Part shown: positions 2 to 60,600 of the stretch, in pieces
How the letters are laid out: each line of letters opens with the position of its first letter
Numbering within the stretch: position 1 is the stretch's first letter
Notes under the pieces: generated by a model
Database searches by the model: none
What the model was told of the DNA's origin: nothing
Seen by the model: only the letters and a program-made list of their open reading frames with translations
Position numbers and translations under genes: made by a program
DNA from: Corynebacterium lizhenjunii
Lineage (GTDB): Bacteria > Actinomycetota > Actinomycetes > Mycobacteriales > Mycobacteriaceae
Direction of reading: 5' to 3'
Assembly (NCBI RefSeq): GCF_011038655.2
Contig: NZ_CP064954.1
Span: 620,001 to 684,000 of the forward strand
Length of the DNA stretch: 64,000 nucleotides

Positions 2-172
2 AACTCCATCATTGCCTCTGGCGCGCACATCGGTGCCAACGCCCACATTGAGAACTGTGTGGTGGGCGAGGGTGCGACCATCGGCGCGCGTTGTGAGCTG
101 CAGTCCGGCATGCGCGTCTTCCCTGGGGTCAACATCCCGGACGCTGGCATTCGTTTTAGCTCCGACGCCTAG
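2..172 (+). CDS. C-terminus of a sugar-phosphate nucleotidyltransferase (ManC/RmlA2-like), partial
   Basis: The window opens inside this gene; only the last 56 codons are present, ending in TAG. The visible protein is a run of hexapeptide repeats of the left-handed beta-helix type (IIASGAHIGANAHIENCVVG, then VGEGATIGARC), followed by a short tail (IRFSSDA). That fold caps the nucleotidyltransferase domain of mannose-1-phosphate guanylyltransferases and glucose-1-phosphate thymidylyl/adenylyltransferases. In Mycobacterium the gene upstream of whiB2/manB is of this type (Rv3264c) and feeds GDP-mannose to cell-envelope mannosylation, so ManC is the likeliest identity. The catalytic half lies outside the window, so substrate cannot be decided here. 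Confidence 0.65.
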   Translation, partial: NSIIASGAHIGANAHIENCVVGEGATIGARCELQSGMRVFPGVNIPDAGIRFSSDA

Positions 173-184
173 CTTGCCGATGCC
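171..184 (+). repeat. Intergenic copy of the AGCTTGCCGATGCC word
   Basis: The word starts on the last two bases of the preceding stop codon (TAG, 170-172). The same 14 bases recur at 18598, 18613, 26743 and 32326. The core TGCCGATGCC is found in 23 places in the window; see the findings. Confidence 0.8.
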
Positions 185-434
185 GCCACGCTCCCTCCTT
201 GTGAACTGCTCACCGCGGCACCACTATATCTAGTACCCCCGTCGTTTACCCCCTGGGCGGTTTTATCGGTGCAGATGTGACTGGTGTGAAAAACGAGCAG
301 GCAATTGTGGGTTGCGGCTAAAAAAGATCCGCCTGGAGCTTGACGATATTTAGTAGCGCCGGTTAAATCTCTTGTGTGTAAGACGGGGCGCGGCCCCGCG
401 AGTCAAGTGTAACTACGGAGAAAGGACAACAGGC

Positions 435-734
435 GTGGACGACATGGCTAATAACGCCAATCTCCGTGGCGGGGGTTCCGCGGCCTTGTCCCTGGATGAG
501 CTCTTTGGGGCAGTAGAGCAAGAGTGGCAAGATCAGGCACTCTGTGCGCAGACCGATCCGGAGGCCTTTTTCCCGGAAAAAGGCGGCTCTACCCGCGAAG
601 CGAAGCGAATTTGCCAGGCCTGCGCCGTGCGTGATGAGTGCCTGGAGTATGCCCTGGAGCATGATGAGCGCTTCGGGATCTGGGGCGGTCTTTCCGACCG
701 TGAGCGCCGCCGCCTCAAGCGTCAAATCGGCTAA
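435..734 (+). CDS. whiB2: WhiB2-type iron-sulfur transcription regulator
   Basis: A 99-residue Wbl protein. Four cysteines in the family arrangement (LC, then ICQAC, then EC) bind a [4Fe-4S] cluster. They are followed by the G[I/V]WGG turn (GIWGGLSDRERR) and a basic C-terminal tail that contacts DNA or sigma factor. Its place just upstream of DUF3499 and manB matches whiB2 of Mycobacterium (WhcD in Corynebacterium), which controls septation. I chose GTG at 435: GGAGAAAGG at 418-426 is at a good distance from it, whereas the in-frame ATG at 444 is too far from that Shine-Dalgarno. A GC-rich palindrome (GGGGCGCGGCCCCG) lies upstream near 384-397. The 260-bp leader suggests extensive transcriptional control. 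Confidence 0.9.
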   Translation: MDDMANNANLRGGGSAALSLDELFGAVEQEWQDQALCAQTDPEAFFPEKGGSTREAKRICQACAVRDECLEYALEHDERFGIWGGLSDRERRRLKRQIG

Positions 735-740
735 ACCTGC

Positions 741-2015: not shown

Positions 2016-2120
2016 GCATGCAATCTTAAGACCGGGACGCGCCCGGCGGGGCTACACCACGCCGCGCCGCGCGAAGTACTTGACCCGCGGGCCAGGACAG
2101 AAGGGCTAGACTCTAGCAGC

Positions 2121-2576: not shown

Positions 2577-2608
2577 ACGCGGCTGCGACCTTGCTAGGCT
2601 TAATAGCC

Positions 2609-3976: not shown

Positions 3977-4150
3977 CCTCGGCGACGTCTAGCCGCGTCG
4001 CAGCTTAGCTCCGGCTCGTGCCTTCGCACTAGCGACGCTTAGCCTCGGCGGTGCCTAGGCTGCCTGTGGGGTTTGCGCTAGCGGTGCCCTAGCCCAGCGG
4101 CGGCGGGGCTGGATGGGCCACGAAGAAAGGCGCTAGCGGGTGGGGGAGGG

Positions 4151-4160
4151 GGCATCGGCA
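4151..4160 (-). repeat. Intergenic copy of TGCCGATGCC (reverse orientation)
   Basis: GGGGGCATCGGCAGACTGGG in the 216-bp spacer between the convergent manB and fpr genes. The rest of this spacer holds short CTAGCnnCG-like iterations and no gene that I can see. Confidence 0.75.
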
Positions 4161-4192
4161 GACTGGGCCTGGTTGATTGGAGCCTGGTTGGT

Positions 4193-5545: not shown

Positions 5546-5671
5546 ACAAGCTCTCTTTTCCGTTGGGGGAGGTTGGTATATCAGCCCTTCATTCAACTCA
5601 TTTTTGACTGGCCCGGCAAGTCCACTATTTTCATTCGCTGCAAAGTGCCAGGTAGTGGGGTATGAATTTTA

Positions 5672-5687: not shown

Positions 5688-5732
5688 GATTGTATGAACT
5701 TAGCGGTATGGCTAGCGTGATGGAACAACAGG

Positions 5733-5788: not shown

Positions 5789-5807
5789 CAAAGGAAGCGC
5801 CACCCCC

Positions 5808-7738: not shown

Positions 7739-7739
7739 G

Positions 7740-8402
7740 ATGACTGTGCTTATTTTGCTCTCCCATGGCTCGCGCCACCCGGGTGCGGCGCCTGGCATTG
7801 ACCGCCTGGCCGATGCCGTGGCCTCCCTGACCGGGCTGCCCACCGTGCCAGCCCACCTGGAGCTGTGTTCACCTTCGCTTGCCGATGCCGCCCGCGCCAT
7901 CGCCGTGGACTACCCCCAGGAAAGCGAGGTGCTGGTGGTGCCGTTGCTGTTTACCCAAGGTTTCCACGCCCGCTGGGACGTTCCTGCCCAGGTTGCAGCT
8001 GCCTCCGAGGCTTCCGGGTTGAACCTGCGGGTAACTCGCGGGCTGGGCACTGGCCCGGATATGGCACAGGTGCTTGCAGAAAGAGTCACTGACCCGCGGG
8101 CTCATCTGGTGGTCTATGCAGTGGGCTCAACTGATCGAATGCCGAACACCGAGGTCGAGCGGCTGGCTGTTCGCCTAGCGGACATCACCGGTCAATCCAC
8201 CTCGGTGGCCTTCGCTACTCGCGGTGGGGTGAATGCTATCGCCCGGCAACGCGAGGTGTATCCCCACCTGGAAATCCTCCCGCTGTTTGTTACCCAGGGC
8301 CTGCTCCTGGACGCAGTGGGGGAGGACCTGCAACCCCTTCAAGAGGCTCTGGCGCCGCTGATTGCGCGCCGGGTCCGAGCTTATTCGAAAGTTGGTGTCT
8401 AA
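7740..8402 (+). CDS. Sirohydrochlorin ferrochelatase (SirB/CysY-like)
   Basis: A 220-residue CbiX/SirB-type chelatase that would insert iron into sirohydrochlorin to form siroheme for the sulfite reductase. The N-terminal LILLSHGSRHPGA holds the catalytic histidine; VLVVPLLFTQGFHARWDVP carries the second conserved histidine-containing segment. The second half repeats the fold (THLVVYAVGSTD-like). It starts one base after the cysX stop and overlaps the next gene by TAATG, so it is in the sir operon. In C. glutamicum the corresponding gene is cysY. Confidence 0.82.
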   Translation: MTVLILLSHGSRHPGAAPGIDRLADAVASLTGLPTVPAHLELCSPSLADAARAIAVDYPQESEVLVVPLLFTQGFHARWDVPAQVAAASEASGLNLRVTRGLGTGPDMAQVLAERVTDPRAHLVVYAVGSTDRMPNTEVERLAVRLADITGQSTSVAFATRGGVNAIARQREVYPHLEILPLFVTQGLLLDAVGEDLQPLQEALAPLIARRVRAYSKVGV

Positions 8403-9406
8403 TGCGTGCACTTATTCTTATTGCCCTGGCCGGGTTTGCGGCCCAATTGGTCGATGGCGGCATCGGCATGGGCTTTGGTGTTACCTCAACGACTATTTTG
8501 CTGCTGGCCGGTTTGGGCCCCGCCCAAGCTTCTGCGGTGGTCCACACCGCTGAGCTGGGTACGACCTTCGCCTCCGGCATATCTCACTGGCGCTTTGGCA
8601 ACGTGCACTGGCCTACCGTGCTCGCTTTGGGCGTGCCAGGCGGTATTGCGGCCTGCGCGGGTGCGCTGCTGCTCTCGAGCATCTCGCTGGAGGCCGCTAC
8701 CCCGTGGACCTCGGCCATCCTCACAGTCATCGGCGTGAGCCTGGTGTGGCGCTTCTCCCGCGGCCGTACCCGCCGCGCTGTATCCACTAAACACCACTCC
8801 CGGGGATTCCTGGTGGGCCTGGGCCTAGTGGGCGGATTTGTCGATGCCTCCGGTGGCGGCGGCTGGGGCCCGGTGTCTACCTCCACCCTGATGGCGGTAG
8901 GGCGCGAGCAGCCGCGCCGCATTGTCGGTACGGTCAACACCGCGGAGTTCCTGGTGACCTTCGGCGCCACCGCGGGATTTGTGGTGGGCCTGTGGGAAGA
9001 GCTCGTTGCCCACGCTGCTGCGGTGGGTGCGCTGCTTGTCGGCGGCGTGTTGGCGGCCCCGGTGGCAGCCTGGCTGGTTTCCCGCGTCAACCCGGTTGCC
9101 TTGGGCGGCCTGGTGGGCACTGCCATCGTGGTGCTCAACCTGCCCAAGATTATCGATGTCCCCGCCTGGGCCCAGTTGATTATCGCCATCATCGGTGTCA
9201 CCGCCACCATCACTGGCGTGCGCCGCTACCGCCGCGCCCTGGCTGCTGACCAAGCTGCCGATGCCGCCGCAGCGAACGAGCAGGCTGCCGGCGACGTCGC
9301 CCACAACGCAAAGACCACCCCGGCGGAAGCCGAGCTGGAGGAGGACGCAGAGCTGGCACAGGGGGCATCGGCAAACTCGCCCGAGCTGGCATACCGCTCC
9401 AGCTAG
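8402..9406 (+). CDS. cysZ: TSUP (TauE/SafE, DUF81) transporter, CysZ-like
   Basis: A 334-residue polytopic membrane protein of the TSUP family. It begins with the family motif GFAAQLVDGGIGMGFG and repeats it in the second half (GLVGGFVDASGGGGWGPV). About eight hydrophobic segments are seen before an Ala/Glu-rich cytoplasmic tail of ~60 residues. C. glutamicum CysZ, at the same operon position, takes up sulfate; with no sulfate-reducing genes here, sulfite, thiosulfate or a sulfonate is as plausible. The tail contains two copies of the TGCCGATGCC word (9256 forward, 9364 reverse). Start overlaps the chelatase stop. Confidence 0.8.
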   Translation: MRALILIALAGFAAQLVDGGIGMGFGVTSTTILLLAGLGPAQASAVVHTAELGTTFASGISHWRFGNVHWPTVLALGVPGGIAACAGALLLSSISLEAATPWTSAILTVIGVSLVWRFSRGRTRRAVSTKHHSRGFLVGLGLVGGFVDASGGGGWGPVSTSTLMAVGREQPRRIVGTVNTAEFLVTFGATAGFVVGLWEELVAHAAAVGALLVGGVLAAPVAAWLVSRVNPVALGGLVGTAIVVLNLPKIIDVPAWAQLIIAIIGVTATITGVRRYRRALAADQAADAAAANEQAAGDVAHNAKTTPAEAELEEDAELAQGASANSPELAYRSS

Positions 9407-10163: not shown

Positions 10164-11195
10164 ATGAGCACCGATTCTGAGCCCGACTACTGGTCTGGGC
10201 AGCAGCACTACGACGCGGAGATGGTCCGCTTTTTTGATGTCGCGCATGAAGGCGCGCAGGTGCGGGCCGTGGCCGCTGCCGTCCCGGCGTTGGAGGCGGC
10301 GCTCTATGGCTCTACGCCGCGCGCCATCGTGGTGTTGCCCACGGACCATGTGGCGCGGGTGTGCGCACAGTTTGTGGCGCGCACGTTTGCCGCTGTGCCG
10401 CTGGTGGTTGCAGATGAGCTGCCGACTTTCGTTGGTGCCTTGGATGTTGTGGTGGTGCTGGGCGAGCGCGCTGAGTGCGACCAGACCAGCCAGGCTCTGC
10501 TGACGGCAGCTAGGCGCGGTGCGCAATGCGTGGCCGTGGTGCCCGGCGTTGGGCCCCTGCTTGCCGATGCCACCTCGTGTGCCACCATCATCGGGGCCCT
10601 GCCAACCGCTACGGCGGGTTCCCCTGCGCGCTATATCAGCGCCTTGGAGGCTATTTGCTCAGCTGCCTCCCAGCCTGCGGCGGTGACGCAAGCGTACCTG
10701 GCGGGTCTTGCCTCGGAACTGGATGCGGAGGTCGAGGCCCTGGGCCCGGACCGTGACGTTAGCGTCAATCCGGCCCGGCAGTTGCGCGACTTTGCGGAGG
10801 ACTGCCTGGTCTTTCATACCGGCGCCCCGCTGGCCGAGGTCGCCGCGGCGCTTTTTGCCCGCGCCGGCCTGGGCGCTGGAGTAGTAGAGCCGGAGGATGT
10901 GCCGCAGATTCGCGCGCGCTACCCGCAGGCGCAGCCGGATCCTTTCTATGATCCCTTCCTGGATGGCCCCGGCTCCGGGCCGGACGCTGACTTTGGGTGG
11001 ACCGTGTTTAGGGCTAGCCCAAAGGTGATTGTCTGGGCTGGGGCTGTTGCCCAGGAGCAAGCCCCAGGAGACGATGGCCAGACTCTAATCCTGTCGGCCG
11101 CTAGTGACACCGCCCACCCCTTGCAGTTGATTACGCGCGCTTTTGCCGCTGCAGCGCTGGATGCTTCCCCGGATACTGCACCGGATGCCGCCTAG
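10164..11195 (+). CDS. TobH-like/SIS-type phosphosugar isomerase-like protein (Rv3256c type)
   Basis: A 343-residue protein. The N-terminal part resembles a SIS fold (AIVVLPTDHVARVCAQFVART, then LDVVVVLGERAECD), and the gene sits immediately before manA, as Rv3256c does in Mycobacterium, where the product is annotated as a conserved or TobH protein. A role in sugar-phosphate handling near mannose metabolism is an inference from context only. ATG 10164 was preferred over the in-frame TTG 10158 because the TATAGG box leaves a normal 9-bp gap to it. A short stretch at 10562 encodes LADA with the TGCCGATGCC word. Confidence 0.65.
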   Translation: MSTDSEPDYWSGQQHYDAEMVRFFDVAHEGAQVRAVAAAVPALEAALYGSTPRAIVVLPTDHVARVCAQFVARTFAAVPLVVADELPTFVGALDVVVVLGERAECDQTSQALLTAARRGAQCVAVVPGVGPLLADATSCATIIGALPTATAGSPARYISALEAICSAASQPAAVTQAYLAGLASELDAEVEALGPDRDVSVNPARQLRDFAEDCLVFHTGAPLAEVAAALFARAGLGAGVVEPEDVPQIRARYPQAQPDPFYDPFLDGPGSGPDADFGWTVFRASPKVIVWAGAVAQEQAPGDDGQTLILSAASDTAHPLQLITRAFAAAALDASPDTAPDAA

Positions 11196-14234: not shown

Positions 14235-15071
14235 TCAGGGGGCGGGTTCGGGCTCAGTGGGGTCTGGCTCGATGGTGGTGGCCAGCGTAGAGGTGGTGGA
14301 TTCTTGGTCGTCTTGGGAGCCGTCGGATTCCAGGAGTGGAGTGTCGCTTTCCTCTTCGGTTGGCTCGGCTGGGACCGTGGGTTCGGAGGTGGTACTCGGT
14401 CCTGTGGTTGAAGGTTCCTCCGTGGTAGGACCGGTTGAGGAACCTTGGGTGCTTCCGGGAGTCGACGCGGAGCTGGTATCGGGTTCGGTGGTGGCGTCTG
14501 GGCGCTGGGGGCGCGTGGTGTCCGGGGGAGTCTCAGCAGAAGTCTTAGTGCCGGGGGCAGGACGTTCGGGTTGGCCTGGAGTAGGTGATTCTGGTCGAGG
14601 ACCGGTCTGCCCTGGGCGCTGCGGTGCTTGTGGTGCTTGCGGGGAGCCGGGGGTATTGGCGGGGCCGGCAGCAGCGGTAGGGGCGTTGGCGGCGGTTGCG
14701 GGGGCATCGGCAGACACGGCATCCTCGCGCGAGCCGGAGATGTTGGGTGGGCGGTAGAACGTGGTGGGCTGGGAGTCCGCCTTGGTGGTATTGAACGCCG
14801 CGTTGGGAGGCAAGAAAGGATCATCGCTTGCCAGAGCCACCGTGCGTCCGGACTTGGGGGAGTCTGTGTCCTCGGTGGGGCGCACGAAGTCACCAACGGA
14901 GGCCGGCCGGGAGGTGGTGTGGGTGACAACTACGCCATGAGCTTGATTCGTGGCACTATCAGAAGTGGAAGAACCCGGCGTGCCCAGGCGCCACACCCCA
15001 GTGCCAACGGCACATGCAACGAGCACGCCAACGGCGATGAAGATAAGCACACGACGCGTATCTGCTTTCAC
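14235..15071 (-). CDS. Membrane-anchored Pro/Thr/Ser-rich protein
   Basis: A 278-residue protein: a short basic start (VKADTRR), one hydrophobic segment (VLIFIAVGVLVACAVGTGVW), then ~230 residues rich in Pro, Thr, Ser, Gln and Glu, ending PEPAP. This is the layout of a type II-anchored protein or uncleaved-signal protein with a long disordered stalk facing the wall. No enzymatic domain is visible. GTG 15071 is supported by GGAAGG eight bases upstream; the frame is open 36 codons further up but lacks a ribosome site. It carries one TGCCGATGCC copy (14703 on the plus strand) encoding SADAPA. Function unknown. Confidence 0.6.
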   Translation of the reverse strand: MKADTRRVLIFIAVGVLVACAVGTGVWRLGTPGSSTSDSATNQAHGVVVTHTTSRPASVGDFVRPTEDTDSPKSGRTVALASDDPFLPPNAAFNTTKADSQPTTFYRPPNISGSREDAVSADAPATAANAPTAAAGPANTPGSPQAPQAPQRPGQTGPRPESPTPGQPERPAPGTKTSAETPPDTTRPQRPDATTEPDTSSASTPGSTQGSSTGPTTEEPSTTGPSTTSEPTVPAEPTEEESDTPLLESDGSQDDQESTTSTLATTIEPDPTEPEPAP

Positions 15072-16172: not shown

Positions 16173-16199
16173 GGAACTGGTGCTTCGGTAGCAGGCACC

Positions 16200-17069: not shown

Positions 17070-18773
17070 GTGCAGTTTACGGAGGCGTGGCGCACGTCTT
17101 TGCAGCTGCGGTTTATTGGGATGATTTTGGCCGCCTCCTCCGTGGTGATGATCATTTTGGCCTATGTGTTGGTCTCGGTGCTCACCCAGCAGTTGGTGGA
17201 CCAGAAGCTCAACGCGGCGGAGCAGGAGATTGATCGCGCGCGTTTGACGGTGGAGCAGCAGATTTCTGCGACGGGTTCTGCTAATTCGCTGCAGGTGCGG
17301 CTGAACTCGGCCCGTGCGTCGCTGACGCAGCTTTCGGCGGAGGGGGACTCCCACGCAGCGTTTGAGCCGGTGTTGGCGGTGGAGAACGCGGATGGGACGG
17401 TGACTACCTCCCCGGAGGGCTATCGCATTCCGGATAATTTGCGCCAGCTGGTTAGCCAGGACCAGATTTCTTATCAATTCGCCACCATTGAGCAGCCTTC
17501 GGGCGGGGCGTATAACGCCTTGGTTATGGGTACGCCTACGAATGCGGATATTCCGGGCGTGCAGGTTTACCTGGTGTTGTCGATGGAGGCCGAGGAAGCC
17601 ACCATGGCGCTTATGCGTGGGTTGCTTTCTGCCGCTGGCGTGGTGGTGGTGGTGCTGCTGGTGGGTATTGCGTGGTTGGCTACCCAGCAGGTGACGGCCC
17701 CTATCCGTTCGGCATCGCGTATTGCTCAGCGTTTGGCTGCGGGCCATTTGCGCGAGCGCATGGTGGTTGATGGTGAAGACGAGATGGGCCGGCTGGCCGC
17801 GTCCTTCAATGACATGGCCGAAAAGCTCTCCAAGCAGATTACCCAGCTGGAGGAGTACGGTAATTTGCAGCGCCAATTTACCTCTGATGTGTCGCATGAG
17901 TTGCGCACTCCGCTGACCACGGTGCGCATGGCTGCGGATTTGATTGCTGCGGATCCGGATTCCTTGGAGCCGCATACTCGCCGCGCCACGGAGCTGATGG
18001 TGCGCGAGCTGGACCGCTTTGAGGAGCTGTTGGCGGACTTGTTGGAGATTTCGCGCCATGATGCTGGCGTGGCGGATCTTTCTGCGGTGAGTCTGGATGT
18101 GCGTAGCTGTGTGGATGCCGCTTGGGAGCAGACCCAGCATCTGGCGGAGGAGTTGGGTGTGGAGGTTCGTTTCCATCTGCCGGAGCAGCCGGTGATGGTG
18201 GAGGGGGATTCCCGGCGCATCGAGCGCGTCTTGCGCAACTTGATCGCGAACGCCATTGATCACAGTGAGGGCAAGCCGGTGGATGTGGAGGTCGCCCAGA
18301 CTGCCGACGCCGTGGGCATCGCCGTGACCGATCATGGCGTGGGTCTTAAGGATGGGCAGGAGGAGCTGGTCTTTAACCGTTTTTGGCGTGCCGATGCCTC
18401 CCGCGTGCGCCACTCCGGCGGTACCGGCTTGGGCTTGGCCATTGCCCGCGAGGATGCCGTGCTCCACGGTGGCACCCTGGATGCCACCGGTGTCTTCGGC
18501 GTCGGCTCCCGCTTCCGCTTTATCCTCCCGCGTGAGCCCCTGGCAGACATTGCTGCGGACCCGATTGCTCTGGAATTGCCCCATGGGGACGCCACCCAGC
18601 TTGCCGATGCCCAGCTTGCCGATGCCCCCACTCCCGATACCTTTGCGGCCAGCCCGGCGGGTTCCTCCCCGCAGGTGCTCCCGGAGGAGCCGGGGGCTAT
18701 GCGCCGTCCGGATTCCTTGCGGGAGCAAAGCCAGCACCGGCGCGCACAGATAGGAGACGACGACCATGCCTAA
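17070..18773 (+). CDS. mtrB: MtrB sensor histidine kinase
   Basis: A 567-residue membrane kinase: first membrane helix at ~15-37 (FIGMILAASSVVMIILAYVL), an extracytoplasmic sensor of ~150 residues, a second helix (LLSAAGVVVVVLLVGIAWLA), a HAMP domain, the phospho-acceptor motif DVSHELRTPLTT, and an ATPase domain with N-box (NLIANAIDHS) and GGTGLGLAIA. It phosphorylates MtrA. The start is uncertain: GTG 17070 has no close Shine-Dalgarno, and the frame remains open up to 17043. The tail includes two adjoining TGCCGATGCC copies (18602, 18617) encoding LADAQLADA. The gene overlaps lpqB by 8 bp. Confidence 0.92.
   Translation: MQFTEAWRTSLQLRFIGMILAASSVVMIILAYVLVSVLTQQLVDQKLNAAEQEIDRARLTVEQQISATGSANSLQVRLNSARASLTQLSAEGDSHAAFEPVLAVENADGTVTTSPEGYRIPDNLRQLVSQDQISYQFATIEQPSGGAYNALVMGTPTNADIPGVQVYLVLSMEAEEATMALMRGLLSAAGVVVVVLLVGIAWLATQQVTAPIRSASRIAQRLAAGHLRERMVVDGEDEMGRLAASFNDMAEKLSKQITQLEEYGNLQRQFTSDVSHELRTPLTTVRMAADLIAADPDSLEPHTRRATELMVRELDRFEELLADLLEISRHDAGVADLSAVSLDVRSCVDAAWEQTQHLAEELGVEVRFHLPEQPVMVEGDSRRIERVLRNLIANAIDHSEGKPVDVEVAQTADAVGIAVTDHGVGLKDGQEELVFNRFWRADASRVRHSGGTGLGLAIAREDAVLHGGTLDATGVFGVGSRFRFILPREPLADIAADPIALELPHGDATQLADAQLADAPTPDTFAASPAGSSPQVLPEEPGAMRRPDSLREQSQHRRAQIGDDDHA
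18598..18626 (+). repeat. Tandem pair of AGCTTGCCGATGCC words at the mtrB 3' end
   Basis: Copies at 18598-18611 and 18613-18626, separated by one C. They fall in the non-conserved tail of MtrB, downstream of the ATPase domain. Confidence 0.85.
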
Positions 18774-22273: not shown

Positions 22274-24865
<2,592 letters not shown>

Positions 24866-26744: not shown

Positions 26745-26756
26745 CTTGCCGATGCC
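26743..26756 (+). repeat. Intergenic copy of AGCTTGCCGATGCC
   Basis: Begins within the stop codon of the DUF6912 gene, in the same manner as the copy at 171. A weak CCCACCC/GGGTGGG hairpin (26765-26791) follows. Confidence 0.8.
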
Positions 26757-32325: not shown

Positions 32326-32339
32326 AGCTTGCCGATGCC
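32326..32339 (+). repeat. Intergenic copy of AGCTTGCCGATGCC
   Basis: Lies in the 55-bp gap between the convergent rshA and lipoprotein genes. Confidence 0.8.
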
Positions 32340-34842: not shown

Positions 34843-35070
34843 TTACTCGTAGTTTTCTGCGCCGTTTGGGGTACGCATGCCCCATTCGGCAAAGGGGCCT
34901 TCGATGGTGCCGGAGGGTGTCTCGGTGGAGGAAGGGGACTCGGGGGTGGAAGGGGTGGTATCGGGAGGTGGGGCATCGGCAAGTTCTTGCGCGGTGGCAG
35001 GCTGTGTAAAGGAGCTAAATAGCAGTGCGGTGCAGATGAGGGAGAGCCAGCGGGGAGAGTGGGGCTTCAT
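34843..35070 (-). CDS. Small exported Pro/Thr/Ser-rich protein, first gene of the lipoprotein operon
   Basis: A 75-residue protein: a signal peptide (WLSLICTALLFSSFTQPATAQ, split site probably after ATA or AQ), then a short mature part rich in Pro, Thr and Ser, ending FAEWGMRTPNGAENYE. AAGGAG precedes ATG 35070. It leads five genes transcribed leftward with gaps of 9-30 bp, so it is probably the operon's first gene. A TGCCGATGCC copy encodes LADAPP just after the signal peptide (34972 on the plus strand). Function unknown. Confidence 0.65.
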   Translation of the reverse strand: MKPHSPRWLSLICTALLFSSFTQPATAQELADAPPPDTTPSTPESPSSTETPSGTIEGPFAEWGMRTPNGAENYE

Positions 35071-38158: not shown

Positions 38159-39522
38159 CGGCGCCGGCCCCGGGAATTGGAGCCGGAACGGGTGCCTGCA
38201 CGCCGCGGCGCTGGACGTCGCGGCACACTGTGCTGAGCTTGTCCGCCGCGCGAGCGGGACCCAGAGCCGCGGGCAGGTTTAGCCCCGATGGCAGCGGTGG
38301 GCGGGCCGACGGTCTCGGGGGCATCGGCAGGGAAGTCGAGGGCAGCGGCAAGCTCAGGGCTGGTGCTAAACCACTGGGGCGGCACGGGCAGGTCCAGACC
38401 GTGCTCATCATTGATAATCTGCCATTTGGGCAGCTCATCATAGCCCACCAGCGTCACCGCCGTTCCACTATGTCCGGCGCGCCCGGTGCGCCCAATGCGG
38501 TGGATAAACGTCTGGGGATCATCGGGAACCTGGTAGTTGAACACGTGCGTGACATCGTCAATGTCAATCCCGCGCGCGGCAACGTCCGTTGCCACCAGTA
38601 GGTCAACGACACCGCTGCGGAAGGCATCCAGAGACTTCTCCCGGTCGGCTTGATCCAAATCCCCGTGGACGGCCCCCACCCGGAAACCCCGCTGCGCCAA
38701 GTCTTGGGCCAACATGGCCGCAGAGCGCTTGGTGCGGGCAAAGATAATGGTCTTACCCCGGTTCGGGGCCTGCAAGGCGCGGGAAAGGATGGCCTCCTTA
38801 TCCAGACGGTGGGCCTGGAAGGTGACCTTCTTGATGGCCTCGTGCGTGGGGGCTGCATCCACCTCTTCTGCGCGCACATGCACCGGTTTGTCCATAAAAT
38901 TCCGGGCCAGCGCCACAATGGGCCCCGGCATGGTGGCTGAAAACAGCATGGTTTGGTGCGGGGAGGCCTCGATGGCCTTGAGGAGTTTTTCAATGTCCGG
39001 CAAAAAGCCCAAATCCAACATCTCATCGGCTTCGTCCAGGACTAGTACCGCGACATTTTCTAAGTTCAATTCGCGCTGGCGGTGGAGATCTATCAGACGC
39101 CCCGGCGTGCCCACCACCACGTCCACGCCCTGGTGGAGCTGGGAGATTTGTCGCGCCATATCGTGCCCACCGCACAAAGTAGCCACCCGCACCGGCAGGT
39201 AGCGCGCGGCTAGGTCCAAATCCTTGCTCACCTGCACGGCCAGCTCGCGGGTGGGAACTATCACCAGGGCGCGCGGGGTGCCGTCGAGTTCGGCTACGTC
39301 GGCATCATCAAAAATGCGGTCCAGCAGCGGCACGCCGAATCCATAAGTCTTTCCCATACCGGTGCGGGCTTGGCCAATCAGGTCGTGACCCGCCAGAGCA
39401 ATGGGGAGGGTGAGCTCCTGGATGGAAAAGGTGTGGACAATGTCGCGCTCGCGTAGGGCGTCGACAATCTCGGCGGCGACACCCAAAGCGGCGAACGTGG
39501 GCTGCTGGTTATTTTGCGTCAC
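38155..39522 (-). CDS. DEAD-box RNA helicase (RhlE/DeaD-like)
   Basis: A 455-residue RNA helicase. Q-motif FSIQELTLPIALAGHD, Walker A ARTGMGKTYGF, motif II LVLDEADEM, SAT (FSATMP), and motif VI HRIGRTGRAGH are present. One change is notable: the usual Q-motif ending and AxxGxGKT are A-R-T-G-M-G-K-T. The C-terminal tail is Arg/Gly/Ser-rich, typical for RNA binding, and holds a TGCCGATGCC copy (38320 on the plus strand) encoding PADAPE. GTG 39522 is the start; AGGGG precedes it. Confidence 0.9.
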   Translation of the reverse strand: MTQNNQQPTFAALGVAAEIVDALRERDIVHTFSIQELTLPIALAGHDLIGQARTGMGKTYGFGVPLLDRIFDDADVAELDGTPRALVIVPTRELAVQVSKDLDLAARYLPVRVATLCGGHDMARQISQLHQGVDVVVGTPGRLIDLHRQRELNLENVAVLVLDEADEMLDLGFLPDIEKLLKAIEASPHQTMLFSATMPGPIVALARNFMDKPVHVRAEEVDAAPTHEAIKKVTFQAHRLDKEAILSRALQAPNRGKTIIFARTKRSAAMLAQDLAQRGFRVGAVHGDLDQADREKSLDAFRSGVVDLLVATDVAARGIDIDDVTHVFNYQVPDDPQTFIHRIGRTGRAGHSGTAVTLVGYDELPKWQIINDEHGLDLPVPPQWFSTSPELAAALDFPADAPETVGPPTAAIGAKPARGSGSRSRGGQAQHSVPRRPAPRRAGTRSGSNSRGRRR

Positions 39523-39965: not shown

Positions 39966-40976
39966 ATGAGCACCGATCCCTCCACCACCCCGGGAACTGG
40001 GGGCCTGAGCCAGGCAATAGTCCGTTTTGCTCACCGTTATGGGTGGTGGCGGGTAATTGCCATCCCCGTCATGGTGGTTATTACTGTCTGGGTCTGCGTG
40101 GATATTGCTCGCGGAGGGGATGCAGGTGCGTCCCAGGCTGGCCAGTCCCAGGGGCAGCACTCGGAGCAGGAGCTTGCTGATTCCCCCTCGTCCCACCCCG
40201 GTGCCCACGGTGCTGATGGTGCCCATCCCGACTTACCGGTGGGCCCAGATCCGGCCAGCATGGAGGCTGTGGCGCTGGCTAAGGATGCCCTGCCGCCCGG
40301 TGGCCCCATTGCGGAGCGCGGCGAAGGAACGTACCGGGAAGTTGGGGTAGCGGGGGCATCGGCAGGCAAAGCTGGCGCTGATGTTCCGGCAGGCGTAACC
40401 CAACGAACAGTGCGCTACGCCATCGAGGTAGAAAACGGGGTAGATACCCGGGCTTATGGTGGGGATGACGCCTTTGCCACCATGGTGGATGCCACCCTGA
40501 TGGACCCGCGCGGGTGGACTAATGATCCGGCCTTTCGCTTTGAGCACGTGGCGGTGGGCGATAAACCAGATACGATTATCCGTCTGACCTCCCTGGGAAC
40601 CACGGTCGAGCTGTGCGGCGCGCAGTTAGAGACGGAGACTTCTTGCCATACGACTATCACGGGGCCATCGACGGTGGTGGTCAATGAGGCCCGCTGGGTG
40701 CGGGGCGCGCAGCCCTTTGAGGGTGATTTGGGGCGTTACCGGCAGTACCTGATTAATCACGAGTTTGGGCACGCCATTGGGTACGCCGCACACCAACCGT
40801 GCGGGGCGCAGGGGGCGCTGGCGCCGGTGATGATGCAGCAGACGCTGAGCATGAACAATGCAGAGCTCTATGCCAAGGATCCGGAGGAAGTTTATCCGGA
40901 TAATGACCTGACCTGTAAGCCGAACCCGTGGCCGTATCCACGTCCAGACAGTACTGACCCCCATAATCCGCGCTAG
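39966..40976 (+). CDS. DUF3152 putative extracytoplasmic metalloprotease
   Basis: A 336-residue protein: one membrane helix near the N-terminus (VIAIPVMVVITVWVCVDIA), a disordered linker, and a C-terminal DUF3152 domain (from ~135: VRYAIEVENGVD). The zinc-protease signature NHEFGHAIGYAAH gives HExxHxxGxxH. Four cysteines (ELCGAQLETETSC, QPCG, LTCK) may form disulfides outside the cell. ATG 39966 has a TAAACT box (39952-39957) 8 bp upstream, so the transcript may be leaderless. The linker includes a reverse TGCCGATGCC copy (40355), read as GASAGK. Confidence 0.85.
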   Translation: MSTDPSTTPGTGGLSQAIVRFAHRYGWWRVIAIPVMVVITVWVCVDIARGGDAGASQAGQSQGQHSEQELADSPSSHPGAHGADGAHPDLPVGPDPASMEAVALAKDALPPGGPIAERGEGTYREVGVAGASAGKAGADVPAGVTQRTVRYAIEVENGVDTRAYGGDDAFATMVDATLMDPRGWTNDPAFRFEHVAVGDKPDTIIRLTSLGTTVELCGAQLETETSCHTTITGPSTVVVNEARWVRGAQPFEGDLGRYRQYLINHEFGHAIGYAAHQPCGAQGALAPVMMQQTLSMNNAELYAKDPEEVYPDNDLTCKPNPWPYPRPDSTDPHNPR

Positions 40977-41847: not shown

Positions 41848-44800
41848 ATGTCACCTTCTGCCCGCTCAGGCCCCTATGACCCGCATGGTGCGGTACGCAG
41901 CGGCGTGATTTTGCCACCCACCCCGCAGGTGCGCCTGGTAGCCCCGCAGGCCCTGGAGCAGCCGCGGCAATGGGAGCAGGACTTACCGCGCACGGGACGC
42001 TGGGTGGTAACCGGCGCGGCTGGCAGCGGGGTATCGAGTTTCTTGGTCGATACCGTGCTGGACAAGCTGCGCTCCGGGGCGGACCCTTCCGGAATTTTGG
42101 TGGTGGCGGCTTCCAAAGAGTCCGGCGCGCAATTGCGTCGGGAACTCAGCGGCCGACTAGACGATTATGCCGCGCAGACCACCATGGTGCGCTCTGTGCA
42201 CTCGCTGGCTTTTAGCCTGGTGCGCGCGCATGTGGATGAAGGGTTGCGGCTAATTACGGGCGCGGAACAGGATGTGGTTATTCGCCAGCTGTTGGCCGCC
42301 CATGCGGAAGCAGGCGGTGCCTATTGGCCGGAGCCGGTGCGCCCCGCACTCGAATTGGTTGGATTTGCCCGGCAGTTGCGTGATTTCTTGCTGCGCGCTG
42401 GGGAACGGGGGCTGGGCCCGGAAGACCTGGAGAGCTTGGGTGCCCGGCATCGGCAGACTATGTGGGAAGCCGCCGGGCAGTTCATGCGGGAGTATGAGCA
42501 GGTGATGTCGCTGTCGGGGCGGCGCTCCTTATCGGCTGCAGAAATTGTCTCGGTGGTGCGTGACCATCCGGAAATGACGCAGAACAGCCCCTGGCATACG
42601 GTGGTGGTAGATGACGCCCAATTGCTAGACCCCAACGCGGGGGAGTTGATTGCCCGGCTGTCGGAGACGGCGGAACTAACCATAATTGGCGGAGATCCGG
42701 ACCAGGCGGTGTTCGCGTTCCGGGGTGCGAACTCGCGCTTCCTCACCAGCTTTGCTGAACAACTTCCTGGCGTGCAGACCGTAGAGCTGACCACCCCGCG
42801 GCGCACCCCGGCCCCGGCGTGCGTGAGCATTGTAGATTCCGCGCGCACGGCCCAGGATGTGGTGGCAGATAGCGTGCGGCGGCGTCACCTGGAAGATGGC
42901 GTGCCGTGGTCGCAGATAGCCGTGGTGGTCCGCGGCGGCGGGGATATTAGCGCAGCACGGCGGGCACTGCTGGCGGCAGGAGTCCCGGTGCACATTCAAC
43001 CCACAGACGTGGTGCTGGGGGAACAACGCCTGGTAGCTTCCCTGCTGCAGGCCATCCATGCGCTTTATCACGAGCTCAGCACAGCGGAGCTGGAGGAATT
43101 GATTACCGGCCCCATTGGTGGGGCAGACCCGGTAACGCTGCGCCGCTTGATTCGCGGGCTGCGCCGCTGGCAACCCCAACAACGCGGTATGGATACGCTG
43201 CGTGAGGTCCTGGATGGGCCACTGCCAGACTTTGGCACGCTGCTCACAGGCCGCGAGCTTGCCATTTTGGAACGGGTGCGCACTGTACTGGATGCCGGGA
43301 GGGCGGTACGCGACGGCAGCGTGGAAGAAGTCCTGTGGGCAGTGTGGTCAGCAACCGGGCTAGCGGAGCGCCTGCAGGCTGCCGCCTTGCGCGGGGGCGC
43401 CACCGGTTCCCAGGCTGACCGAGATTTGGACGCCGTCATGGCACTCTTCGACGCCGCCGGTGACTTCGCGGAGCGCTACCCCCAATTGCCCATGGAGGCC
43501 TTCATAGAAGAAATCCTCTCCCAAGACCTGCCCACTGGTGTGCGTGACCGGCGGGTAGTAGCCCCGGAAGCGGTAGAAATCATCTCCGCGCACGGAGCGG
43601 TGGGCCGGGAGTGGGACACGGTCATTCTCACCGGCGCCCAGGAAGGCAGCTGGCCATCCTTGGGGGAGACCGGCTCGCTCTTTGGCCAAGAAGACCTCAT
43701 TGATCTGCTAGACCGCAGTATTGATCCGGACACTCACGTCTCACACCTAAGCGATCGCCTGGCGGAGGAACGCCGCCTGTTCCACGTAGCTACCACCCGA
43801 CACCGCAACCGGCTTCACATCGTGGCTGTGGATGCGCCTCAGGCGGAGGAAGTCTATGAACCCTCCCGCTTCATTGCGGAGTTCTGTGGCCGGGGTGTGG
43901 ATCTGCCCGCAACGCTGGCGCGCCGGGAGGCTGCTGCCGCCTTGCGCCGCAGCGCCTGGGCGCGCGAACTTGGCCTTGACGTTCCAGCGGTGATTTCTGC
44001 GCAGCGGCTCAATCACGAAGGTGAGTTGGACCCCCTGCAGGTGTCCGTGCTGTCGGTTCCCGCGTTTGTTGCACAGCTGCGCCGGGTGGTCAGTGATGTT
44101 AGTGCCGATGGCGTTCAGCGCGAGCAGGCGGCCCGCCAGCTGGCACGTTTGGCCCAGGCCGGGGTGCCGGGTGCCCACCCCGCGCAGTGGTGGGCGCTGA
44201 CGGTCAGCACGGGTGGTGAGGCCGGGGCGGAAGCTTCTGCTGAGTCTGCCGATGTCCCCGTGGCCGACCCCGCAGAGCCGGGCACCGTGCGTTTACCCAG
44301 CGTGTCGCCCTCTAAGGTAGAAAAGCTGCTCAAGTGCCCCTTGCAGGCGGTGCTGGGGGATATTGACTCCGAAGAAGCCACTCCCTTGGCAGCCGTGCGC
44401 GGTACTGTGGCCCACGCATACCTAGAAGCACTGGGCCGCGGCGTCGACCCGGAGTTGGCAGAAGAATTAAGCCGCCACACCATGAAGGAGCTGCTAGACG
44501 TCCCCGCGTGGAAGCGCGATTATGAGCTGTCGCAGTGGGATAACCTTGTGGAACGTACCCGGCAGTGGGTGGCGGCCACCCGCGGTGTCTATGAGCTGGT
44601 GGGCGTGGAGGTGCCGGTGGACGTTACGGTGGCCCCTGGCGTGAAGGTCTTTGGCTATATTGACCGCTTGGAGCGGGAGCGCGGCTCTGAGAACGGTGCC
44701 TTAGTGGTGGTGGACCTTAAAACAGGCGCTAGTGTTCCCAGTGCCCAAAGCGTGCAAGAAAACCCCCAGATGGCCGCCTATCAATTGGCGGTGCGCGGCG

Positions 44801-52386: not shown

Positions 52387-53238
52387 GTTGCCGGGGGCAT
52401 CGGCAGTGTCAGCATTAAAGCACGCAGGGCAGCGCGGGTGGGGGTCGAAGAAGTGCTGCTGAGTGCGCCCGTGAACGTCAACGTCATCGGTGCGCCCCGG
52501 ACTCCACAGCACCGGTAAGGCACCGGGAAGTGAGGGCCGACCCACCAGGGAGCGCACCGCGACCACGGTATGGGCAATCGCGGCTGCTCCCACGACTATG
52601 TCTGGCTCCGGGACAGGGCTTATCTGGTTGGTGACCTGGGCCCACAGGGGGTCTAATTCGGTGCGGTAGAGACCAAAACACAATGGGCAAGGGCCTTGTC
52701 CGTTGATGTGCGCCGGGCCCAGCAGCACCCGGGTGTCGAAGGCGGCGACCGGCAGCCAGGTGTGCGTGGTGCGGTGCAGCAAGGTGGATAGTTCTTCTAC
52801 CTCGCTCCATTGATCCACCACCACCACAGGAATCTGCTTGCGCGCCAGAGCTAAAAAGGGCTGGAGTTGCGTGCCTCTGCGCGGCTGGTGCACGAGAAAG
52901 TCATCTGCGCGCAATGCCCCGGCCAATAGAGACGCCAATGGGCTGGAGCCCACGAGGAAGATGTGATCTCTGGGGGTCACGGGGACCCACACCCCGAAGC
53001 GGACGAGCTCTTCAAATAAACTGTCAGCTGCGGCTTTGCTCAACCCGGCGGATTCCAGCGCGTGGCTAAACTCCTCGGCGCGCAGAGGACCCACCAAGCC
53101 CTGCAGAATCTGCGCCACCAGCGGGGCAGGGGTGATTTCAATGATGCCCGCCCGGGTAGCATCCACACCACATTGGAGTGCGTGGAAGTCGCGCGGGTAA
53201 AACCCGACCCCTGGTGCTTGGGTATAGAACTCTTCCAT
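52372..53238 (-). CDS. ThiF/cyclodehydratase-like protein (Rv3196 type)
   Basis: A 288-residue protein related to the E1-like/cyclodehydratase family of azole-peptide systems. Segments include HIFLVGSSPLASLLAGALR (nucleotide-binding-like), and two CxxC pairs, CPLCFGLYR and CPACFN, for structural zinc. No TOMM precursor peptide or YcaO partner is present nearby, and the gene is at the position of chromosomal Rv3196, so I read it as a housekeeping relative rather than a bacteriocin gene. ATG 53238 follows GGGAGG at 6 bp. The last codons contain the repeat word GGGGGCATCGGCA (52396), encoding TADAPG. Confidence 0.7.
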   Translation of the reverse strand: MEEFYTQAPGVGFYPRDFHALQCGVDATRAGIIEITPAPLVAQILQGLVGPLRAEEFSHALESAGLSKAAADSLFEELVRFGVWVPVTPRDHIFLVGSSPLASLLAGALRADDFLVHQPRRGTQLQPFLALARKQIPVVVVDQWSEVEELSTLLHRTTHTWLPVAAFDTRVLLGPAHINGQGPCPLCFGLYRTELDPLWAQVTNQISPVPEPDIVVGAAAIAHTVVAVRSLVGRPSLPGALPVLWSPGRTDDVDVHGRTQQHFFDPHPRCPACFNADTADAPGNLTPL

Positions 53239-56881: not shown

Positions 56882-56965
56882 GGGGCCTCCTGAAAAACTT
56901 GATAGCAAACTTTTTATGGCGCTCTTGTACCGCAATGTGAACGACGTTGCGCAACTGCTCCCAGT

Positions 56966-57514
56966 TTAAACCAGCTGGTCCGGATCCTGCTCAAGGCCAT
57001 AGCGCAGTGCTGCCAGCACCCCCGGCGCCACGCCAGGGCCGCCGCGCAATTCAATATCATCCTGAGCAAAGGGGCCGCGGGCCTCCAGTTCAGCCTCTGT
57101 GGGCCGCAACTGCAGCAAAGTCTGCTCCACGTCCTCTGGGCGCAATACGCCGCTAAAGAGCCGTGCCGGGCGGGGCTGCTGGGCCTCCGGACCAGTAGCG
57201 GAGGTATCCCGGAACAGGATTTCTTGGGCCAAGATGACCCCGGCTACCTGCGGCGGCCAGGCGAGGCGGGCCACATAGTCCGCCAGCTCCTCAGAACCGG
57301 GCTCCAGGTGCTCAGGAAGATTGTCTTGCACCACGAGGGACAAGGGGGCATCGGCAGACACAGCCTCTGGGTCCGGGAGGGAATCCAGCAGCAGCTCTGT
57401 GGGCACCAGCGCAAAAAGGGTAGGGGCGGCATCCCACCCTTCGGCGTGGACAAACTCCACAGCCTCGCGCATAGCGCGGTTTAAAGCAGGCTGGGTAAAG
57501 GCTGGGGAACTCAT
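56966..57514 (-). CDS. PPA1309-type conserved actinobacterial protein
   Basis: A 182-residue soluble protein. The pattern LNRAMREAVEFVHAEGWDAAPTLFALVPT at the N-terminus and ADYVARLAWPPQVAGVILAQEIL in the middle matches the actinobacterial family known as PPA1309 or Rv3192-adjacent. These genes are always divergent from the large UPF0182 membrane protein, as here. ATG 57514 follows AGGAGG at 3-4 bp. Function is not known. It includes one TGCCGATGCC copy (57347 on the plus strand) encoding SADAPL. Confidence 0.75.
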   Translation of the reverse strand: MSSPAFTQPALNRAMREAVEFVHAEGWDAAPTLFALVPTELLLDSLPDPEAVSADAPLSLVVQDNLPEHLEPGSEELADYVARLAWPPQVAGVILAQEILFRDTSATGPEAQQPRPARLFSGVLRPEDVEQTLLQLRPTEAELEARGPFAQDDIELRGGPGVAPGVLAALRYGLEQDPDQLV

Positions 57515-57611
57515 GGGCCTCCTCATGCGTTACAAAGAGTGGTACTTCCTGTCAGCGGGAAGTCTATATCGGATTAGTCCATCACATCACGAGCAACGAT
57601 TGGAGCTGGCG

Positions 57612-60600
57612 TTGGCCACAGGATATCCCCAACCCGCTGCCCCTTTGAAACGCCCCCCGCGGGCACTGAGCTGGGCCGTTACCCTCATTGCGGTTCTGCT
57701 TTTCCTCGGCCCCATGGCCGTGGGCTTTTATACGGACTGGAAGTGGTTCGGTGCAATTGACTATCGCGGGGTATTTACCACCGTCATCGTGGCCCGCATA
57801 GTTATCTTCCTCATCGGGGCGCTGCTGGGTGGGCTTATCACCTGGGCTGCCGCATTCTTTGTGTGGCGCGGCCGCCCAGAGGAGCTGGACATGGGCGCCC
57901 TAGACTCGCCCATTCACGCCTACCGCAGCGCGATTGAAAGGTCGGTGCGCTCCTTCCTGGCCTTCGTGCCGCTGCTGGTGGGCTTGGCCACCGGTTTCTT
58001 GATGCAGGTAAACTGGCGGGCTTTCTTGCTGTTTATTAACTCCCAGGAATTCGGCGTCCAGGACGCCCAATTTGGGCAGGACCTGGGCTTTTACGCGTTC
58101 CAGCTGCCCGTGTTCAAGCTACTGGTCTCCACCTTGTCGCTATTGGTGATGTTGGCGTTCTTGCTGGCGCTGGCCGGGCACTACATGCTGGGCGGGATTC
58201 GTATTGGTTCGCGTGCGGCCGGGGTGCGGGGGACAGTAACCCCAGCCGCTCGCATGCAGCTGGCGATCACCGGTGGCCTGTGGATGTTGCTGCAGGTAGC
58301 TGGCTATTGGCTGGAGCGCTATGAGCTGCTCTACAAGCAGAACTCCATCTTCACGGGTGCTTCCTACACGGATCTCAACGCCTACTTGCCTGCCAAGATT
58401 ATCCTTATGGTCATTGGCGTGGTGGTGGCCATTGCCTTCTTCATGGCGGTTGTGGTTAAGGACCTGCGTATCCCCGGCTTGGCCGTGGTGATGATGTTGG
58501 TGTCTTCCATCGTTATCGGTACGGCATGGCCGTTGCTGATGGAGCAGTTCTCCGTCAACCCCAACCGGCAGGCAAAGGAAGCGGAATCCATTGCGCGCAA
58601 CATTGACGCCACCCGCTACGCCTATGGTCTCAGTGATGACAAGGTCACCTTCGTAGAGAACTGGGGTGCCGGAGGCGCAAAGGACGCCGATGTGGCAGCC
58701 GATGTTGCCACGATTTCCAACCTGCGCCTGCTGGACCCGGACATTCTGGGGGAGACCTTCACGCAGATGCAGCAGCTGCGTAACTTCTATGGCTTCCCGG
58801 ACACGCTGGCCATGGACCGCTACGAAATCGACGGGGAGACCCGCGACTTCGTGGTGGCCGCCCGTGAGCTGGACCCGAATGCCCTCAGTGAGAACCAGCG
58901 TGACTGGATTAACCGCCACACGGTCTACACCCACGGCAACGGGTTTATTGCGGCAGAGGCCAATAAGGTCGATGAGGTTGCCCGTGACGCAGGTTCCACC
59001 CGCGGTGGCTACCCGGTCTTTACGGTCTCCGATCTGCAGACCCAGGCCGGCAAGACCGAAGGTGAAGGCGAGACCCAAGATGCCGAGGAGTCCCTGGGCA
59101 TCAAGGTGGAGCAGCCGCGCACTTATTATGGTCCGGTGATCGCCTCTTCGACCGATGGCCGCGACTACGCCATTGTGGGCAAGACCGGGGACCGCCCGGT
59201 GGAGTACGACACCGACCAGTCCACCTACACCTATGACGGTGAGGGCGGCGTGTCCATTGGCAACTATGTGGATCGCGCTGCCTACGCCCTGAAGTACCGG
59301 GAGATGAACTTCCTGCTGTCGGATCGCGTGGGATCGGAATCGAAGATCCTCTACGACCGCGACCCGCGCGAGCGCGTGGAGCAGGTGGCCCCGTGGCTGA
59401 CCACGGACTCCAAGACCTACCCGGCGGTAATCGATGGCCGCATCAAGTGGATCGTGGATGGCTACACCACGTTGTCTGCCCTGCCTTATGCGCAGCAGGC
59501 CCTCTTGCGGGAGACCACCCAGGACGCGCTGAACCCAGATGGCACCAACCAGCGCCTGTTCAATGACCGCGTGGGCTACATCCGCAATTCCGTGAAGGCG
59601 ACGGTGGACGCCTACGACGGCACTGTGACCCTCTACGAGTTCGATACGCAAGACCCGGTGCTCAAGGCATGGCAGGGCGTGTTCCCGGACGTGGTCAAGC
59701 CACGCTCTGAGATTTCTGAGGAACTGCACAGTCACCTGCGCTACCCGGAGGACATGTTCAAGGTCCAGCGCGACATGCTGGCTCGCTATCATGTCGATGA
59801 CCCGGGCGTGTTCTTTAACAATGACGCCTTCTGGTCCGTCCCGGAGGACCCCAACGCCAGGGAGGGCTCGCAGGCCCTCAACCAGCCGCCGTACTACGTC
59901 ATGGCTGCGGACCCGGAGACGGGGGAGCCTTCCTTCCAGCTGATTTCCACCTTCCGTGGTCTCAAGCGCGAGTATCTTTCCGCTCACATGTCGGTCTCTT
60001 CTGATCCGGAGACCTATGGCCAGATGACCGTCCGCGTGCTTCCAACCAACACCCAGACCCTGGGCCCGAAGCAGGCGCAGGATGCCATGATGTCTTCTGA
60101 CCAGGTCGCTCGCGACCGCTCTCTTTGGGAGTCCACCAACTTGCTGCAAAACGGCAATTTGTTGGCGCTGCCGGTAGGCGGCGGGGAGATTCTCTACTTG
60201 GAGCCGATTTACTCCAAGCGCAAGGGCCAGGAGTCTGCGTTCCCGAAGATGCTGCGCGTGCTGGTGTCCTACAAGGGCTCCATCGGCTATGCCCCAACCA
60301 TCTCGGAGGCTTTGGAGCAGGTGGGCATTGACCCGAAGGCAGCCCAGGATATTGAGGAAGTTTCTGGCGATGGTGCCAAGGCAGACTCTCAGTCTGCTGA
60401 TGCCGCTGCGTCCGCCGACTCCAAGGATGACGCCAAGCCTGCCGATGCCGCCCGGGATTCCCGTCCTGCCTCCGCTCCGGCGTCAACTGATGCGGGCCAG
60501 GCGATTAGCGCCATCAATGATGCACTCAAGGGTCTGGAAGATGCCCGCGATGGTTCCCATGAGGAGTACGGTCGCGCGCTCGATGCCTTGGACAAGGCCG

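Follow-up and report, generated by a model that had tools for sequence, protein, structure and literature searches.

Corynebacterium lizhenjunii carries a short, non-palindromic DNA word, TGCCGATGCC, that is one dialect of a motif spread through its genus. By analogy and from its footprint in the genome, the word probably forms the core of a signal for the uptake of self DNA that molecular drive has spread; it would then be a functional analogue of the DNA uptake sequence (DUS) found in Neisseriaceae and of the uptake signal sequence (USS) found in Pasteurellaceae. The word was noticed in the window, by which we mean the whole stretch of 64,000 nucleotides that was analysed (bases 620001-684000 of the C. 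lizhenjunii genome, handle G000, a single contig of 2,607,882 bases). As a preliminary description of this DNA had reported, the window contains 23 exact copies, 11 on the plus and 12 on the minus strand, where fewer than one would be expected; 100 dinucleotide shuffles of the window gave a mean of 0.28 copies and at most 2. No other 10-mer is as frequent in the window, and across the whole genome we counted 990 copies, 504 on one strand and 486 on the other, compared with only 7 and 3 copies of the reversed, uncomplemented word. Further analyses used a sample of 864 kb, about one third of the genome, consisting of the window and 40 stretches of 20 kb, in which 752 genes were called with a simple codon-usage script. 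Here too TGCCGATGCC was the commonest 10-mer, with 326 copies. The longer shared flanks that had been described for the window were also found in the sample, where the consensus of the 326 sites is (C)(C/T)(G)AGC(T/C)TGCCGATGCC(C/G)CC, with C-rich sequence on the 3' side of the word.

Such a count could have a cause at the level of protein or codon usage, with Ala-Asp-Ala (A-D-A) linkers written in favoured codons. Consistent with this, 264 of the 326 sampled copies are genic, 187 of these 264 read A-D-A, and the A-D-A peptide is itself enriched (381 versus 233), with GCCGATGCC used in 221 of the 381 cases. However, 100 shuffles of synonymous codons within each gene gave an expectation of about 8 copies per orientation, far below what was observed both in the sense orientation (189 copies versus 8.4 expected, maximum 19) and in the antisense orientation (75 versus 8.4, maximum 14). 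Moreover, 62 copies lie in 119,889 bp of non-coding sequence, where an order-2 model predicts 0.37, so that the density outside genes (517 per Mb) is higher than that inside (354 per Mb), and the related words of other species described below encode other peptides. Codon usage or peptide as the sole cause is refuted by the synonymous shuffles, and we give it a negligible chance. The argument of the preliminary description against a protein cause alone is therefore borne out. Because the excess persists over a codon-aware expectation and extends to non-coding DNA, neither of the two outcomes that had been named as counting against a DNA-level function, a copy number close to a codon-aware expectation or an occurrence only as A-D-A codons with no intergenic excess, was found. 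The preference for sense over antisense within genes is put down to tolerated peptides.

Next, we considered how the copies are oriented and spaced. Chi- and KOPS-type motifs (KOPS, FtsK orienting polar sequences) are short words found chromosome-wide that are oriented with replication. Unlike these, TGCCGATGCC shows no such orientation: when the nine blocks that make up the 864 kb were summed, with the replichore assigned by the sign of the GC skew, 167 copies pointed one way relative to replication and 159 the other, and an oriented motif of the Chi or KOPS type was rejected. Spacing in the sample was random (coefficient of variation 0.99 versus 1.02), close pairs were in excess, with 6.9% versus 3.8% less than 100 bp apart, and tandem copies 15-18 bp apart occur. 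The density dips in three blocks between 868 kb and 1.4 Mb, with 25, 37 and 23 copies per 100 kb, compared with 41-48 copies in each of the other five 100-kb blocks and about 36 per 100 kb in the window (23 in 64 kb). These low-density blocks (868-1402 kb) surround the switch in GC skew.

We then asked how imperfect copies are distributed. Windows matching the 14-mer AGCTTGCCGATGCC with 0, 1, 2 and 3 mismatches numbered 96, 133, 179 and 373, and an order-3 simulation gave 1, 2, 14 and 151, which corresponds to a graded excess of near-matches (ratios of 96, 66, 12.8 and 2.5). The reversed 14-mer showed no such excess, with 0, 0, 9 and 71 windows versus 0, 0, 9 and 74 simulated (ratios of 1.0 and 0.96 at two and three mismatches). 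To examine placement, we compared 159 site-orthologue pairs (protein identity of at least 45%, with no independence between pairs from the same site) with 795 control pairs from the same genes, leaving uncounted the 13.8% of both site pairs and control pairs that fell outside the alignment. Of the aligned pairs, 29% had an alignment gap no more than two residues from the site, versus 9.5% of control positions, and flanking identity was 0.91 of the gene average at sites versus 1.03 at controls. These figures indicate that sites prefer tolerant stretches of protein, although most are not at indels, 71% of the aligned site pairs having no gap nearby; the avoidance of conserved sequence that had been described for the window thus holds on average. 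The longest word-free stretches of the sample measure 18.8 and 17.5 kb, and 36 genes were called in them; several of the ten that were scanned encode core enzymes, namely transketolase, phosphoglycerate kinase, UvrC, a fumarase-like lyase and exonuclease VII. A gene for a DDE transposase, of lower GC content (0.52), also lies in one of these stretches (L041:9011-10546).

The same data bear on whether the word spreads as a mini-repeat or transposon-derived unit, similar to repetitive extragenic palindromic (REP) elements or miniature inverted-repeat transposable elements (MITEs), with a core of 10-14 bp. The many near-identical copies, the tandem copies, the excess of close pairs and the greater frequency of gaps near sites than at control positions would all be expected of such a unit, but the graded near-matches, the 71% of aligned sites with no gap nearby and a flank consensus that is no longer strong outside some 17 positions would not. 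A nucleotide-level comparison of one 3.8-kb comEC locus in seven related genomes also speaks against it. The first site of this locus is intact in six genomes, and the seventh differs by substitutions, with the length unchanged and the same residues encoded in the frame suggested by the word. The second is present in one genome, one base off in two others and further off in the rest, again with no change in length. The third, which is surrounded by indels, is kept in five genomes, has one differing base in another and is missing from the last. In this small sample that could be aligned, the sites thus appear to arise by point mutation rather than by insertion. A REP- or MITE-like mini-repeat is disfavoured, as no inserted unit of constant length and flanks was seen in this limited sample, and we give it scarcely any weight. 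Among the DNA-level functions that the preliminary description had listed (recombination, segregation, uptake, a binding site or a spreading mini-repeat), uptake fits best; the general claim of a function at the level of DNA is supported, whereas its orientation-dependent version is not, nor is its mini-repeat version at the sites that could be compared.

To elucidate how far the word extends beyond C. lizhenjunii, we counted it in related genomes. Among 301 genomes of the family, TGCCGATGCC is outstanding in G000, G189 and G233, with 990, 370 and 330 copies, and over 242 genomes of the genus it forms a graded series below G000 (509 in G409, 370 in G189, 350 in G451, and on). Of the 242 genomes, 174 contain 100-983 copies of a common form, GCTTNNCGAYGCC, while 12 contain 32-99 and 56 contain no more than 31; we refer to genomes as motif-rich or motif-poor according to this genome-wide copy number. 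The common form is about equally frequent on both strands, and the reversed control stays in single or low double figures. In 113 genomes from 30 other genera of the family, GCTTNNCGAYGCC has 4-74 copies, most counts being near the reversed control. When 80-100 kb from each of nine relatives were searched for frequent words, related words emerged, among others CTTGACGATG in G389, GCTTGTCGATGC in G303 and G484, GCTTATCGATGC in G321 and TGCTTTTCGACG and TTTCGACGCCCC in G344; the sample of G326 yielded nothing clear, and in that of G409 other words ranked higher. We also sampled 80-100 kb from each of ten motif-poor genomes (G138, G280, G254, G240, G408, G309, G323, G217, G412 and G179) and found clear new words in two, GCTT(A/G)TTGACG in G179 and T(A/G)ATGACG(C/T)CGCG in G309. 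These words are private: G179 contains CTTRTTGACG 480 times and none of the other 241 genomes of the genus more than 70 times, and G309 contains TRATGACGYCGCG 390 times, as against 0-13 times in each of its 241 fellow genomes. Both genomes belong to the 56 with 31 or fewer copies of GCTTNNCGAYGCC. The word GCTCGACGC of G412 and the words of G408 are weak or unclear. When 14 sampled genomes were each shuffled synonymously 20 times, a word's sense count clearly exceeded expectation only in the genomes to which that word belongs, and the encoded peptide shifts with the dialect, from L-A-D-A to L-V/I-D- and D/N-D-A/V-A. Because the peptides change with the dialect, it is the DNA, and not one peptide, that is kept.

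Several further words were seen in these samples. G409 (L081-L085) has a second abundant word family, CGTGCTCGTGGC and CGTCCTCGT, which includes a 9-mer with up to 47 copies in 100 kb; it represents either protein repeats or another dispersed word. In the motif-poor G240 (L133-L136), TGGCGTCCA occurs 14 times in 80 kb versus 1.7 expected and is possibly a weak word. G408 (L137-L140) is enriched in TGCCGATGCC, with 130 copies genome-wide, and has only 27 of GCTTNNCGAYGCC; its sampled CCGATGCC sites mostly lack an upstream GCTT, and CGTCGCCGTC and TCACCGTCGGTG are also repeated. Six motif-poor genomes (G335, G368, G369, G286, G450 and G452) contain 57-70 copies of CTTRTTGACG versus 7-14 of the reversed control, and perhaps share a further related dialect.

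This distribution helps to weigh two other DNA-level explanations. In the first, the word would be the binding site of an intracellular protein that organises, repairs or segregates DNA, such as a nucleoid protein, an SMC- or ParB-like loader or a reader of KOPS- or Chi-like sites, whose specificity drifts between species. Hundreds of chromosome-wide copies, tolerance of near-matches and the lower density between 868 kb and 1.4 Mb are consistent with this possibility. On the other hand, the replichore orientation bias expected for KOPS and Chi is lacking, the copies sit where proteins tolerate them, and a core chromosome function would hardly be expected to use words confined to single species or to leave GCTTNNCGAYGCC near background in as many as 56 of the 242 genomes. 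We consider it unlikely. In the second, the word would be a site linked to restriction-modification or another defence system, with marked self sites identifying the cell's own DNA. The species-specific words and the bipartite look of GCTTNNCGAYGCC would suit such a site, but restriction sites are normally avoided rather than enriched, and the graded near-matches suggest a tolerant reader; a defence site is very unlikely.

We therefore compared the words with known sequence-selective uptake systems, as these are described in passages of the published work. Listed traits of uptake sequences are the absence of an orientation bias, a non-coding excess, few inverted pairs, a location in reading frames for 35-65% of copies, and even spacing (PMC1939737); they are also stated to arise by point mutation and to be scarce in strongly constrained genes, and selective uptake is stated there for Pasteurellaceae and Neisseriaceae only (PMC7811141). 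The Corynebacterium words share the lack of orientation, the non-coding excess, the graded near-matches, the apparent origin by point mutation and the existence of dialects. The resemblance to the DUS of Neisseriaceae lies in a hugely over-represented word of 10-12 bp with dialects within one family (PMC3630211). According to the same passages, CTG at positions +6 to +8 is common to all DUS dialects; it is absent from the consensus words found here, which also come from a different phylum. Further differences are the Tad/Flp locus and comEA/comEC of C. lizhenjunii and a total of 990 copies as against about 1900-5900. Like the USS of Pasteurellaceae, the word has a short core and a likely origin by point mutation; a sparse occurrence in strongly constrained genes, which is stated for the USS (PMC7811141), may be a further point in common. 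It differs in sequence from the USS, quoted as AAGTGCGGT in a motif-discovery paper that also gives CRISPR-derived patterns (CRISPR, clustered regularly interspaced short palindromic repeats) for three Corynebacterium genomes (PMC5217627), and in having several dialects rather than two types. The flanks of the word are C-rich, unlike those of the USS, which we take to be AT-rich. As the sequence is not shared with the DUS, we suggest, by analogy and footprint, that the word works like an uptake sequence, and do not claim that it descends from one. Regarding receptors, ComP is the DUS receptor (PMC3868556) and a predicted USS receptor is stated in PMC12616744.

If the word is an uptake signal, the cell should possess machinery for importing DNA. 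At 1.875 Mb (L078), G000 has in a row comEA, with SLBB and HHH_3 (helix-hairpin-helix) domains, comEC and a holA-like gene, and its ComEC passes the cut-offs of the Pfam Competence model and the NCBIfam ComEC N-terminal model. A Tad/Flp locus at 0.222-0.230 Mb (L017) encodes Ssd, TadA, TadB, TadC, Flp (DUF4244), TadE, a TadE-like protein and a helicase; TadE is of the Rv3655c type (40.5 bits versus a cut-off of 40), the TadE-like protein is of the Rv3654c type, and TadB and TadC, neither of which matched an NCBIfam model, were named by position. The Rv3654c-like gene (L017, 9833-10165) itself encodes Q-L-A-D-A-A, the kind of stretch that the word writes. In 20 related tad loci, from motif-rich and motif-poor genomes, TadA, TadB, TadC and Flp were found in all 20, the helicase in 19, a small TadE in 11 and an Rv3654c-like protein in 14. 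Of the genomes searched for TadA, all 36 motif-rich ones and 10 of the 44 motif-poor ones gave a strong match (E value of 5.3e-48 or better), an association that may reflect phylogeny instead. Similarity to the TadE of G000 correlated with copy number over the 242 genomes (rho 0.53, with no tree correction) and over the 92 more distant ones (rho 0.59; median -log10 E of 20.6 in 37 motif-rich versus 4.0 in 49 motif-poor genomes). Flp-pilus (tad) genes with TadE-like proteins, together with comEA/comEC, carry out transformation in Micrococcus luteus (PMC4322843), a gene set like that of Corynebacterium; the main text of that paper contains neither 'uptake sequence' nor 'Corynebacterium'.

Together, these observations suggest the following model for an uptake signal. 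A cell equipped with a Tad/Flp pilus and ComEA-ComEC would be competent for transformation. A DNA-binding part on its surface, perhaps a minor pilin, would prefer duplex DNA resembling AGCTTGCCGATGCC(C/G)CC in either orientation, so that word-bearing fragments would be taken up and recombined more often than others, which would leave the footprint described above. Mutations that create or improve a word would ride along and build up wherever protein and regulation tolerate them. Drift in the preference of the receptor may then cause the word to be rewritten genome-wide, and such drift could account for the dialects observed in different species, GCTTNNCGATGCC, GCTTNNCGACGCC, GCTTRTTGACG and TRATGACGYCGCG, and for loss or replacement of the word in some species.

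A number of observations weigh against an uptake signal of this kind. Sense copies are favoured over antisense copies within genes, 189 to 75, a preference that uptake does not need. Genic copies make up 81% of those sampled, whereas 35-65% is the range quoted for known uptake sequences; the overall density of the word, 377 per Mb, is lower than that of the DUS and USS; and its spacing is random rather than even, as reported for known uptake sequences, although we do not hold even spacing to be defining, since uptake bias has no need of it. Outside the genus, GCTTNNCGAYGCC is two- to fivefold above the reversed control in four genomes (G103, G097, G083 and G036; 52-74 copies versus 15-22), and inside it, six of the sampled motif-poor genomes gave no clear substitute word in their 80-100 kb, with weak candidates possible in CTCGACGCC of G280 and TGGCGTCCA of G240. 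The ComEC of G000 is short (419 residues) and falls under the cut-off of the full ComEC/Rec2 NCBIfam model (58.6 versus 190), and its ComEA is under that of TIGR01259 (68 versus 152), though over that of its helix-hairpin-helix model. Of 30 genomes searched for a ComEC domain, 29 have one, and as these include motif-poor genomes its presence is uninformative; the single genome in which none was found (G461, 90% complete) is motif-rich, with 154 copies, and the match in G409 is partial. As tadA was found in 79 of 80 genomes, the machinery fails to predict the motif. Within the 150 genomes that a SecA-like protein places nearest, the TadE correlation disappears (rho 0.13, p 0.12), and seven motif-poor genomes among them keep a strong TadE; in some motif-rich genomes TadE is weak (G375, with 400 copies and an E value of 2e-4). 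Finally, among the matches listed from the open-access literature, a source that excludes subscription journals and preprints, there were no uptake, binding or competence data for the genus, nor was there an uptake sequence or dispersed word in Corynebacterium or other Actinobacteria. TadE itself, promising as the reader of the word over the 242 and the 92 distant genomes, failed among the nearest 150 and is kept as a candidate.

A bolder proposal, which we put forward tentatively as a serious possibility, is that these words represent a third, independently evolved uptake-sequence system, in a Gram-positive genus with a presumed mycolate outer layer, in which transformation through Tad/Flp would be gated by species-specific words, rewritten throughout the genome in the course of lineage divergence, that about one quarter of more than 240 species have lost or replaced. 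If so, sequence-selective uptake would have a third instance, in another phylum and in a genus of 242 sampled species, in which the start, drift and loss of uptake specificity could be tested. Natural competence would be predicted for the genus, of which there was no report among the literature matches listed, and DNA carrying the right dialect would provide a handle for finding the receptor.

Within the window, where genes were assigned by simple in-house calls, 14 of the 23 copies read A-D-A on the coding strand, four are antisense and five intergenic, in agreement with the earlier description of mostly A-D-A copies in genes alongside other placements. The intergenic copies are at 175..184 (+), 4151..4160 (-), which is flanked by convergent genes, 26747..26756 (+), directly past the stop of gene 26226-26744, 32330..32339 (+) and 34972..34981 (-). 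Gene 8402-9406 contains two antisense copies, at 8459..8468 (-; GIG) and, close to its end, 9364..9373 (-; GASA), and a sense copy at 9256..9265 (+; AADA). The other antisense copies are at 40355..40364 (-; GASA) in gene 39966-40976 and at 42446..42455 (-) in gene 41905-45105, of UvrD/PDDEXK type (by a family scan of 41848-45105). Sense copies on the plus strand are found at 7880..7889 (LADA) in gene 7740-8402; at 10562..10571 (LADA) in gene 10164-11195; at 18389..18398 (RADA), 18602..18611 (LADA) and 18617..18626 (LADA) in gene 17070-18773, the last two 15 bp apart in its C-terminal tail; at 24802..24811 (SADA) within the final 21 residues of gene 22274-24865, which is SecA-like; and at 60440..60449 (PADA) in the C-terminal part of gene 57714-60629, which belongs to UPF0182 (by a family scan of 57321-60629). 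Those on the minus strand, each in a minus-strand gene, are at 14703..14712 (SADA) in gene 14235-15140; 28534..28543 (AADA) close to the end of gene 28492-29850; 30903..30912 (SADA) in gene 30702-31205; 38320..38329 (PADA) in the C-terminal part of gene 38155-39522, which encodes a helicase; 52396..52405 (TADA) about ten residues from the end of gene 52372-53238; and 57347..57356 (SADA) in gene 56966-57472.

An Rfam scan of the window found two tRNAs and nothing more above the gathering score, and a scan for promoters and terminators between 24000 and 43000 showed nothing linked to TGCCGATGCC. Short tandem arrays are located between called genes at 5732-5791 and 16194-16263, with a 14-bp unit, GCAACGATTAACCA, and a 15-bp unit, GGCACCCAAAGTACC, respectively. 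At 41848-48352, two neighbouring genes encode proteins that both have UvrD-type helicase and PDDEXK nuclease domains, a pair that we take to resemble the AdnAB repair proteins of Actinobacteria.

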